Shown piece by piece: positions 9,157-12,979 of a stretch of DNA of 64,000 nucleotides. The first letter of the stretch is position 1, and every line of letters begins with the position of its first letter. Under the pieces are notes generated by a model. It ran no database searches. It was not told the DNA's origin and worked only from the letters and a program-made list of their open reading frames with translations. Made by a program: the position numbers and the translations under genes. The DNA comes from Bacteroidetes bacterium 2013_40CM_41_45 (GTDB lineage Bacteria; Bacteroidota; Bacteroidia; AKYH767-A; 2013-40CM-41-45), in NCBI GenBank assembly GCA_002215675.1, contig NGFH01000009.1, positions 237,501 to 301,500 of the forward strand, read 5' to 3'.

Positions 9157-9301
9157 ACATGTAAATAGAAAAATTTTAGGTAAAAGTAAGGATTGAAAAT
9201 GTAACGAAATGGGATTAGCATGAAGCACTCTTTTTTGTCATGCTACGTTCTTTGACAAGTACAAAAAGTTCCTCCCATTACACTGAAAGGGGAAGCATTT
9301 T

Positions 9302-9330
9302 TTTGATACTGCCGGGAATTTGTACTTTTG
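9302..9330 (+). promoter_or_regulatory. Probable promoter of the 72-residue gene
   Basis: TTTG at 9302-9305 and TACTTTTG at 9323-9330 match the Bacteroidota -33/-7 consensus (TTTG, TAnnTTTG) with a 17-base spacer instead of the usual 19. It lies 44 bases before the ATG at 9375 and supports that start over an earlier one at 9240, which would lie upstream of the promoter. Confidence 0.5.
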
Positions 9331-9374
9331 AAATTGCCTTTAACCCGGCGCAAGCCAAAACAAATTTTAGCACC

Positions 9375-9593
9375 ATGCAGGGAAGACCAAGCAAAAAAAT
9401 TGAGGTAAAAGTTAATGAGCTGCTTTATATAGGCAAGCGGGGGATACAAATAAAAGTAACTCACAAAAGAGCCCGTTCCAAAACAGGAATCTTTTACCTT
9501 ACCGTTGGCGGCTTATGGTGGCGCGAGCACGAAAAGAAAAACTGGAAAAAAGTTTCCTGGGACGAACTGGTGGAGATGTTTATGGAGAGGTGA
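9375..9593 (+). CDS. Hypothetical protein, 72 residues, basic
   Basis: A small protein of unknown family, rich in lysine and tryptophan, with a predicted beta-rich middle (VNELLYIGKRGIQIKV, then TGIFYLTVGGLWW) and a helical end (WDELVEMF). There is no signal peptide or membrane segment. The frame is open back to 9240, but a promoter-like element at 9302-9330 favours the ATG at 9375. It precedes the ATPase-TOPRIM gene by 83 bases on the same strand, but that gene has its own promoter-like site, so the two need not be an operon. No function is assigned. Confidence 0.6.
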   Translation: MQGRPSKKIEVKVNELLYIGKRGIQIKVTHKRARSKTGIFYLTVGGLWWREHEKKNWKKVSWDELVEMFMER

Positions 9594-9676: not shown

Positions 9677-12007
9677 ATGATTGCAGGATTACTTGTAAGA
9701 GGTTATAAGGTTTACAATAATGTTAAGTTCATTCCTTTTTTTGAACTTATACATGAAAATCTAAAATTATTTATTGGACCTAACGGAGTCGGAAAAAGCT
9801 CGATCCTTGAATCACTAGATATATTTTTCAATAATGCAAAATGGAAACAGCAAGTTGAGCGAACTGATGGATATGTAGCACCATTATTGTTAATAGATAG
9901 AAATAAAATTAATAAATTTTCTGAGACGTCTGTTGAGTACCTGCAAAAGATAAGCAACTTTCTTTGGAATGAAAATTACGAGGATGATAAATTGCACTAT
10001 AGTTATATATCTGACTTTTTTACTTTTCGAGATCGAATCAAACCTCTATATGAGAAAAGTCACTATTTAATTTTATTGGGAATAGCATCCAGTTCAATTC
10101 CATTTAAGAAGGACTTTTCTTTTGCTACGTTCGATTCCAAAATAAAAAGGCAAATTTTAGGTTTTCTGGTAGCAGATGATGAAGATGGAAGATTAAAACT
10201 TAAAGATCAGAATTCTTTAATAAAATTATTGAATGAAATCCAAGAGACTTTTACGTACATCTATATTCCTACTGAAACAAATATTACTGAATATCTGAGA
10301 TTAGAGTCAAACGACATGCAGAAATTGACAGATAAGAAAATTGTAGAAAACATTGATAATATTTTAAACTCAAAAATTATAAAGTCTGAAGTATCAGCCG
10401 GAGAAGTTACTTCACAGGAAACTCAAAACATTTTAGAATTAATTAATGAAAAACTTCAGCTTAATTTCAATGAAATTGAAAGTACAATACAAAAAATAGA
10501 TAGCCGCTACAGATTTCAGGAAGAGGGTAGTCCAAAGTTAACTGCGAAGGACATCAATCGGCAAATAATAAAGGCGTTTTATACAAAAAGAATTTTAAAA
10601 TTTGATTCAAAGCCAATTGAGAGTTTAAGTTCTGGTGAAAGAAAAAAAGCTCTGATAGACATTGCATATTCATTCTTGGGACAGGAAAAAAGGCAACAAG
10701 AGAAAGAAGTGATTCTTGCAATTGACGAACCAGAGGCATCATTGGACATGTCTATTCGATATGAGCAATTTGACAGAATTGAAAAATTGGCTAAAATATG
10801 TCAAGTCCTTGTTGCAACGCATTGGTATGGGTCGTTACCAATTTTACAAGATGGATTAATAAATCATATAGAGAAGGATGATAAAGGAATACCAAAAATT
10901 AGACTATACAAAGTACATAATTATTTTGAGGATCGAAAAGATGATCCTGATGATATTTATTTCAAAAGTTTTTCTGATCTTTCCTTATCAATATTAACAT
11001 CGTTAAAAAATAAGAATATCAATTGGATTATTGTTGAGGGGCCTGAAGACAAAAATTATTTAGACTATTATTTAAAAGATATGATTAAAGATTTAAGGAT
11101 ACTTCCTGTAGGAGGTTGCGGTAGCGTAGGGGTGCTATATCAACATTTGTTTATTTCAATATCGAGAAGGTCAGATTCTAGTTCCTTAAAAGGAAAAGTT
11201 TTCTGTTTGGTTGACACTGATTCGCAAATAATGGACATTGAAAAAAGCGATACTAAAAATGAGAAGTTGAGAATACGCAGATTCCACACCCAAATAGTTA
11301 ATAAGCATAAGGAAGTGCAGTTAGCCAAAATAAATGCACGTATTGTTAATCCCACGGAAATAGAAGATGTTCTTAATCCTCAGCAGTTTTATAATGCGCT
11401 TAAAACCTCGATCAGTAACTCAATCGATATGAAAGTAAGGGAAGCATTTGAATGTTTCACGTTCGATCCAAAGGAAACTTTAAGTTTTATTGGCGGAGAA
11501 AATTCCATTTTAGTTCCACAGCCCAAAGAAGGCAGAAACTCAAAGGAAGACAAACAAGTAATTATTGATTTCATTGATAAGAATAAACATTTAATTTCTG
11601 AAGAGTATTGCAAGCTTGAACAAGTTGAGGTTCCCCTTTGGGTAAGAGAAATTATCGGATATTTTGCTGGAGACATAAAAAATAATTCTGAATCAGATGA
11701 TAGAAAAATTATACGTCTTAGTAAGGTTGCTATAGAGTTAAATATTAGTACTGAAAGCATCATTGAATTTCTTAATGGTCATGGTTTTAGTATCGAACCA
11801 AATCCTAATATTAAGATGACAAAAGAAATGTATCGGTTACTGCTTCAGGAATTTAAACCCGAAGCATTGCATACCTTGAGTGAGGAGCAACAAATACTAG
11901 AAAACGTAGTTGAAAAAGAAGATAAAACTATTGTTTCTGATATGACAACTGATAAACAGCCCCAAGAATCGATAATACCCAATAGTGAAACCGCTTCTAT
12001 GTTGTAA
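9677..12007 (+). CDS. AAA/ABC-type ATPase fused to TOPRIM nuclease (OLD-like) with C-terminal IF-2N-like domain
   Basis: A 776-residue cytoplasmic protein. Residues about 1-430 are an SMC/ABC-like ATPase: Walker A GPNGVGKSS at 34-42, signature SLSSGE at 316-321, Walker B LAIDEP at 347-352 and switch histidine ATHW at 380-383. A TOPRIM domain follows, with IVEGPEDK (E454), LVDTD (D513, D515) and the TEIEDVL motif (E561, E563), the acidic set of OLD/DUF4435 nucleases. Residues about 677-728 resemble the first domain of Bacteroidota IF-2 (RLSKVAIELNIS, IIEFLNGHGF, EPNPNIKMT, LLLQEF). A disordered acidic tail ends the protein. The gene is visibly more AT-rich than its neighbours, which suggests transfer. 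A phage-defence role is inferred from OLD, Gabija and PARIS relatives; the exact family was not tested. Confidence 0.85.
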   Translation: MIAGLLVRGYKVYNNVKFIPFFELIHENLKLFIGPNGVGKSSILESLDIFFNNAKWKQQVERTDGYVAPLLLIDRNKINKFSETSVEYLQKISNFLWNENYEDDKLHYSYISDFFTFRDRIKPLYEKSHYLILLGIASSSIPFKKDFSFATFDSKIKRQILGFLVADDEDGRLKLKDQNSLIKLLNEIQETFTYIYIPTETNITEYLRLESNDMQKLTDKKIVENIDNILNSKIIKSEVSAGEVTSQETQNILELINEKLQLNFNEIESTIQKIDSRYRFQEEGSPKLTAKDINRQIIKAFYTKRILKFDSKPIESLSSGERKKALIDIAYSFLGQEKRQQEKEVILAIDEPEASLDMSIRYEQFDRIEKLAKICQVLVATHWYGSLPILQDGLINHIEKDDKGIPKIRLYKVHNYFEDRKDDPDDIYFKSFSDLSLSILTSLKNKNINWIIVEGPEDKNYLDYYLKDMIKDLRILPVGGCGSVGVLYQHLFISISRRSDSSSLKGKVFCLVDTDSQIMDIEKSDTKNEKLRIRRFHTQIVNKHKEVQLAKINARIVNPTEIEDVLNPQQFYNALKTSISNSIDMKVREAFECFTFDPKETLSFIGGENSILVPQPKEGRNSKEDKQVIIDFIDKNKHLISEEYCKLEQVEVPLWVREIIGYFAGDIKNNSESDDRKIIRLSKVAIELNISTESIIEFLNGHGFSIEPNPNIKMTKEMYRLLLQEFKPEALHTLSEEQQILENVVEKEDKTIVSDMTTDKQPQESIIPNSETASML

Positions 12008-12889: not shown

Positions 12890-12905
12890 TTTAGATTTCT
12901 CTTTG

Positions 12906-12979
12906 CGGTCTGGACGGGATTCGAACCCGCGACCCCATGCGTGACAGGCATGTATTCTAACCAGCTGAACTACCAGACC
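12906..12979 (-). tRNA. tRNA-Asp (GTC anticodon)
   Basis: A 74-base cloverleaf without encoded CCA. The acceptor arm is GGTCTGG/CCAGACC with discriminator G. The D arm (GTTCAGCTGGTTAGAAT), the anticodon stem-loop ATGCCTGTCACGCAT with GTC in the loop, and the T arm GCGGGTTCGAATCCCGT are all intact. G73 and the GTC anticodon are aspartate identity elements. It is a single tRNA gene with its own terminator downstream. Confidence 0.95.

Follow-up and report, generated by a model that had tools for sequence, protein, structure and literature searches.

The DNA analyzed here, referred to as the window, is a whole stretch of 64,000 nucleotides from Bacteroidetes bacterium 2013_40CM_41_45. Its open reading frame at 9677..12007 (+) encodes a 776-aa OLD-type ABC-ATPase/TOPRIM protein with intact catalytic residues, extended at the C-terminus by a tail resembling the N1 domain of translation initiation factor IF-2, and no partner gene was recognized. 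In an alignment of 45 family sequences, the Walker A motif GPNGVGKS (residues 34–41, 9776..9799, +) is invariant or nearly so, while the ABC signature LSSGE (residues 317–321, 10625..10639, +), D350, E351, and P352 of the Walker B motif with its catalytic Glu (ILAIDEPE, residues 346–353, 10712..10735, +), and the H-loop His382 are all invariant. In the TOPRIM domain (residues ~447–566; 11015..11374, +), E454, the adjacent G455, and the two Asp residues of the DTD motif, D513 and D515, are invariant as well. Because the motif and catalytic residues are invariant across the 45 sequences, the ATPase and the TOPRIM both appear to be functional. Residues 2–382 matched Pfam AAA_15 (5e-13) and AAA_21, the best PADLOC match was the AriA profile (E 1.9e-15), and the AlphaFold model (pLDDT 81, pTM 0.76) had as its closest solved folds GajA (Foldseek E 9e-13) and the Retron-Eco8 OLD effector (1e-11). 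The C-terminal part of the conserved body continues to residue ~663 (11375..11665, +), where the relatives stop, and is followed by three segments: the IF-2 N1-like domain at residues 673–729 (11693..11863, +), placed by searches against IF-2, hhalign, and HMM; a stretch like the helix and linker after N1 in Bacteroidota IF-2 at residues 730–756 (11864..11944, +), placed by genome-search alignments; and a low-confidence, probably disordered C-terminus at residues 757–776 (11945..12004, +; pLDDT 32–34). The initial annotation had given the ORF, its coordinates, and the quoted residues correctly, residues 677–728 corresponding to 11705–11860.

An RND efflux operon lies upstream of the gene, and cspA and a tRNA-Asp gene lie downstream. 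Neither a helicase of the GajB type nor a reverse transcriptase was found among the neighboring ORFs, nor is any other defense gene adjacent, that is, the gene stands in a single-gene context. Since such a context characterizes OLD Class 1 (PMC10568477), the protein was assigned to this class. With P2 Old and Thermus scotoductus OLD it has in common a single gene, an N-terminal ABC ATPase, a C-terminal TOPRIM with intact acidic residues, and the lack of a helicase or reverse transcriptase neighbor; it differs from them by the IF-2 N1 added after the TOPRIM and by its sequence relatives, which form a separate group of ~640–660 aa. The missing helicase and reverse transcriptase genes also set it apart from Gabija GajA and the Retron-Eco8 effector, respectively, despite the fold similarity. 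The AriA match corresponds to the ATPase of PARIS, for which single-gene ATPase and TOPRIM fusions have been described (PMC9122126). DUF4435 (PF14491, AriB) gave no Pfam match in the window protein at E ≤ 10, and AriB gave none in PADLOC; therefore, the TOPRIM is not recognizably AriB and the protein was not filed as PARIS. An IF-2 tail is likewise not described in the PARIS literature examined. The tRNA-Asp gene (12905–12979, −), ~0.9 kb past the low-GC gene, is a possible integration spot, and no clear flanking repeat was found. A small, unassigned ORF lies upstream (9240–9593, +), of which an internal start, MQGRPSKK..., would leave ~72 aa; it was not seen upstream of the closest relative of the gene.

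By sequence comparison, residues 673–729 are a homolog of the Bacteroidota IF-2 N1 domain, here with its core residues kept, severed from the IF-2 GTPase, and set at the C-terminus of a nuclease. Against the IF-2 of the same genome the tail aligns as IIRLSKVAIELNISTESIIEFLNGHGFSIEPNPNIKMTKEMYRLLLQEFKPE vs. FIRLSKASKEFNVSTEHIVEFLASRGIVISKDPNTKISGEGYELLLQEYQPE, with 28 of 52 residues identical (54%, 61 bits). An HMM built from 216 Bacteroidota IF-2 N-termini scored the tail at 79.1 bits (E 2.3e-23), compared with 7.6 bits for the best of 2000 shuffled tails, and hhalign against a nine-sequence IF-2 profile gave a probability of 99.5% at 52% identity. When the whole window protein was used as the query in a six-frame search of 100 genomes, the only matches at E ≤ 1e-10 outside the gene itself were IF-2 N-termini, found in 28 of the 99 other genomes; these matches run through residues ~644–770, and the host's own IF-2 was among them (E 9e-13). 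The tail matches the N-terminal N1 copy of IF-2 and not the second IF2_N domain before the GTPase. The initial annotation thus had the right protein, domain, and architecture in an ATPase-TOPRIM with a C-terminal IF-2-like domain, and the similarity is not confined to a few residues, as it continues, more weakly beyond residue 729, to residue ~756.

Pfam IF2_N (PF04760) gave the excised tail 17.2 bits (E 0.0045), below the gathering score of 25.3, no IF2_N match was obtained with Pfam and NCBIfam on the whole window protein, and NCBIfam gave no match on the excised tail, whereas the IF-2 profiles were significant. The Pfam cut-off is uninformative here, because the genuine IF-2 N1 of the host also falls below it with only 15.2 bits, under the score of the tail; the model is too narrow for Bacteroidota IF-2 N1. 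In the structure comparison, a single-sequence model of the tail only (pLDDT 76) placed IF-2 chains highest, six of the seven chains at Z ≥ 5 being IF-2; their Z values of 5.2–6.8 are modest, as for a domain this small and helical a Z below 8 counts as weak.

The tail is an addition to the body, as none of the relatives retrieved, the closest one included, has it. The body family occurs in Bacteroidota, Proteobacteria, Firmicutes, and Cyanobacteria; a single-sequence scan of the genome contigs retrieved nothing, and an alignment query retrieved 72 relatives. Across the 79 related loci that were retrieved, no member apart from the window protein ends in an IF-2-like tail, and the relatives run against the 216-sequence HMM all failed to score. 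The body of the closest relative (L110) is 57% identical, and its end is different, of low complexity and disordered. The window gene is foreign by composition, with a GC content of 31.5% for the body and 32.8% for the tail vs. 41.5% for the window; this shared composition indicates that body and tail arrived together. At identical residues only 4 of 27 codons agree between the tail and the host's own infB, with 48% nucleotide identity, which rules out gene conversion or recent copying from the resident gene and makes the join old. By score the tail is nearest to the IF-2s of its own class, the order of the window genome included, and the Rhodothermia IF-2s are the most distant; as the gene is foreign, no matching to the present host can be seen. 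Searches of viral contigs with the tail and of phage records with the full protein gave nothing, and two apparent plasmid matches to the tail (H17 and H18) were discarded, one being an annotated infB and the other an unannotated record. Elsewhere in the body family, a tail-less relative (29% identical) is flanked by pglX and pglZ in a type I BREX locus on an Acinetobacter plasmid (L068:14001–15935), a placement recalling that of ariAB, which this type of locus holds in Salmonella (PMC11341690). BREX linkage as a rule for the family was rejected, because none of the 79 loci had BREX genes in the stretches examined, so that the Acinetobacter plasmid is a single case. A Rhodothermia member (G236, loci L072 and L117; 38% identical) adjoins an HsdR-like restriction subunit.

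About 700 Bacteroidota genomes were searched with the tail, and 92 with one found copy. Seven architectures carrying IF-2 N1 were obtained, the window protein included, and five of them have a defense- or immune-type scaffold or locus. In genome G378, a 1182-aa cold-shock-domain protein with an internal N1 is encoded in a BREX locus, flanked by pglX and pglZ (L103:6113–9661, −); in this locus PADLOC recognized PglZ (5e-255) and BrxL (E = 0) and tblastn recognized pglX and brxC. Its N1 is 51–56% identical to the IF-2 of its own genome, with a mean alignment score of 178 against own-clade IF-2s vs. 77 against those of the order of the window genome; the carrier also adjoins a Schlafen AlbA_2 protein. 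In G311 and G038, an N-terminal N1 is found on a PLD-like protein beside an MkoA-type helicase (MkoA 4e-112, MkoB 6e-7). At these Mokosh-like loci (L102:4760–7024, −; L070:4804–6864, +) the PLD-like protein begins with the N1, and a 209-aa protein and an AAA+ ATPase follow; a relative in G319 had no N1 in the frame read. A 1169-aa LRR-Roc-COR protein of G801 (L254:6088–9597, −) starts with the IF-2 N-terminus and ends in a region resembling CHAT, though below the Pfam cut-off (E 3.5e-4), and a 552-aa protein of G624 starts likewise, keeps a linker motif, and is otherwise marked only by an ExoX-like C-terminal motif. At the G624 locus (L253:5589–9087, −), the carrier gene apparently belongs to the same operon as the genes for a UPF0489 protein and a protein of 359 aa, possibly a new defense locus. 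In G079, G617, and G645, an N-terminal N1 is joined to a ~900-aa AAA protein like the defense candidate PDC-M26A (2.6e-27, PADLOC); the carrier of G079 (L256:2881–5583, +) is convergent to infB itself. Finally, stand-alone proteins of 230–270 aa consist of N1 and a charged tail (G239, G778, G811, and G859; loci L104:6989–7687, L250, and L252), the f37 copies keeping the IF-2 linker motif KIIGKIDLP or KILGKIDLP. A ClpC-type ATPase (G668) was treated as a false match, and near-identical IF-2 fragments in G496 were set aside as probably an assembly issue.

For two of these copies, both in draft assemblies with ~3% estimated contamination, substitutions relative to the IF-2 of their own hosts were counted. 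Over 108 residues the G801 copy and the IF-2 of its host are 94% identical, compared with 74% between the host IF-2 and that of a congener. Between copy and own IF-2, pS was 0.84 and pN 0.035, vs. 0.86 and 0.157 between own IF-2 and the congener's, the synonymous divergence being beyond saturation and thus giving no date for the capture. Even in the disordered linker, which changes fast between species, 44 of 46 residues are identical to the host's own. Recent copying or gene conversion was rejected, because either would leave synonymous sites alike, and only 49 out of 101 codons are shared, near the 42 that independent draws would give. These results point to protein-level selection on the G801 copy to look like host IF-2. 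The G624 copy is 87% identical to its own IF-2 over 76 residues (pS 0.86, again saturated and undatable; pN 0.08) and equally close to other IF-2s of its genus (84–89%). The simplest account of these substitution patterns is that likeness to host IF-2 is required of both copies. In the Mokosh-like and AAA carriers, the copy does not match the IF-2 of its own host.

We tentatively favor, at a probability of about 45%, that the window tail mimics IF-2 and serves a stand-alone OLD-family defense protein as bait or sensor. By the precedent of its relatives, the ABC-type ATPase would restrain or arm the C-terminal TOPRIM nuclease; for the output the precedent is PARIS, in which a phage protein sensed by the ABC ATPase leads to release of a TOPRIM tRNase (PMC12839542, PMC12409363). 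The acquired N1 tail would stand in for host IF-2, so that a phage factor acting on the IF-2 N-terminus by binding, modification, or cleavage would also engage the tail, as would one disturbing the contact of IF-2 with its partner, which in E. coli is NusA. The ATPase would then release the nuclease, and the freed nuclease would cut nucleic acid, tRNA or DNA in the known relatives, stopping the infection. For the window protein we infer the defense role, the sensing by the tail, the trigger, and the nuclease target alike. The literature searched did not describe a phage factor that acts on IF-2 N1, nor is one known to us. It also counts against this reading that over its full length the tail shares only ~45% identity with the IF-2 of the host, that this IF-2 ranks ~19 among the 216 IF-2s compared with the tail rather than best, and that the copies in the Mokosh-like and AAA carriers do not match their hosts' IF-2.

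The initial annotation had offered bait for a phage factor, targeting to ribosomes or tRNA, and a generic helical module as possible functions, of which the first two are the likelier. The bait reading gains from other immune-type proteins onto which N1 and linker of host-lineage IF-2 have been copied and, as it seems, kept by protein-level selection, and docking has gained a specific candidate partner that the annotation did not name, NusA. In the docking alternative, which we regard as a serious possibility, the tail would make the ordinary contact of IF-2, likeliest with NusA on RNA polymerase or else with the 30S subunit; the nuclease would thereby be placed where transcription meets translation, near tRNAs or nascent phage transcripts, and another part of the protein would sense the trigger. 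Pull-down and crosslinking in E. coli showed that N1 of IF-2 with residues 57–90 (1–90 in all) binds the KH2/AR1 part of NusA directly (PMC12297416). The captured stretches of ~75–110 residues have a length like this NusA-binding unit. In the window genome nusA lies directly upstream of infB. The tRNase activity of the PARIS effector AriB (PMC12409363) and an RNA theme among the carriers, with the cold-shock domain in the BREX carrier and a UPF1-like helicase beside the Mokosh-like carrier, would also suit docking, and the tail model resembles the N2 subdomain of IF-2 as seen on the 30S subunit, albeit at a Z of only ~6. However, docking alone needs no match of 44 out of 46 linker residues to host IF-2 with randomized synonymous sites, as in G801, and few of the carriers are bare nucleases, most being switch proteins of the ATPase, AAA, or LRR-Roc kind. 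Both readings need an IF-2-like surface, so that sequence alone does not separate them, and our tilt toward bait comes from the host-like linker and from how often the scaffold is of a switch type (ABC, AAA, or LRR-Roc).

That the tail is a generic module, a small HTH-like domain for oligomerization or nucleic-acid binding whose IF-2 origin is functionally meaningless, is the weakest of the three functions and unlikely, because the tail is specifically IF-2-like, with 45–54% identity and similarity running past the Pfam domain. Its MerR/HTH-like fold, the DNA-binding domains among the lower-ranked structural neighbors, and the ease with which the small N1 could be moved would agree with such a module, but the repeated capture of IF-2 on immune-type proteins and the strong purifying selection in G801 and G624 would then be unexpected. 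Least probable is that a fragment of infB was joined recently by recombination as a passive tail. Such an accident would accord with a tail in only one family member among 79 related loci and with the different, disordered end of the closest relative; yet the few codons shared with infB point to an old join in which the N1 core residues are still intact, and the common foreign composition shows that tail and body moved together.

To a broader reading we give slightly less credence than to bait in the window protein: Bacteroidota immune proteins would repeatedly capture the N-terminus of the host's own IF-2 and keep it host-matched as an integrated bait, the window protein being one of at least six such architectures. 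The concept would be that of the integrated decoys of plant NLRs, in which an immune switch protein has a copied host-protein domain attached to it. The nearest parallel is the LRR-Roc-COR-CHAT carrier, although the IF-2 N1 carriers are bacterial, with unrelated scaffolds.

The OLD ATPase/TOPRIM scaffold is already known; what appears new is the IF-2 tail and its recurrence on defense-type proteins, and no description of IF-2 domains in defense proteins was found in the open-access literature searched. There is a substantial chance that the IF-2 N1 module represents a new sensing principle. The tail links a known OLD scaffold to the translation-initiation and transcription-coupling machinery of the host, and as an integrated bait it would report phage attack on IF-2 N1 or on its contact with NusA. 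The prediction is that Bacteroidota phages act on the IF-2 N-terminus or its partner NusA and that the bacteria watch that spot. If true, this would imply a still undiscovered phage strategy against the IF-2 N-terminus and a general bacterial counterpart of the plant integrated decoys.
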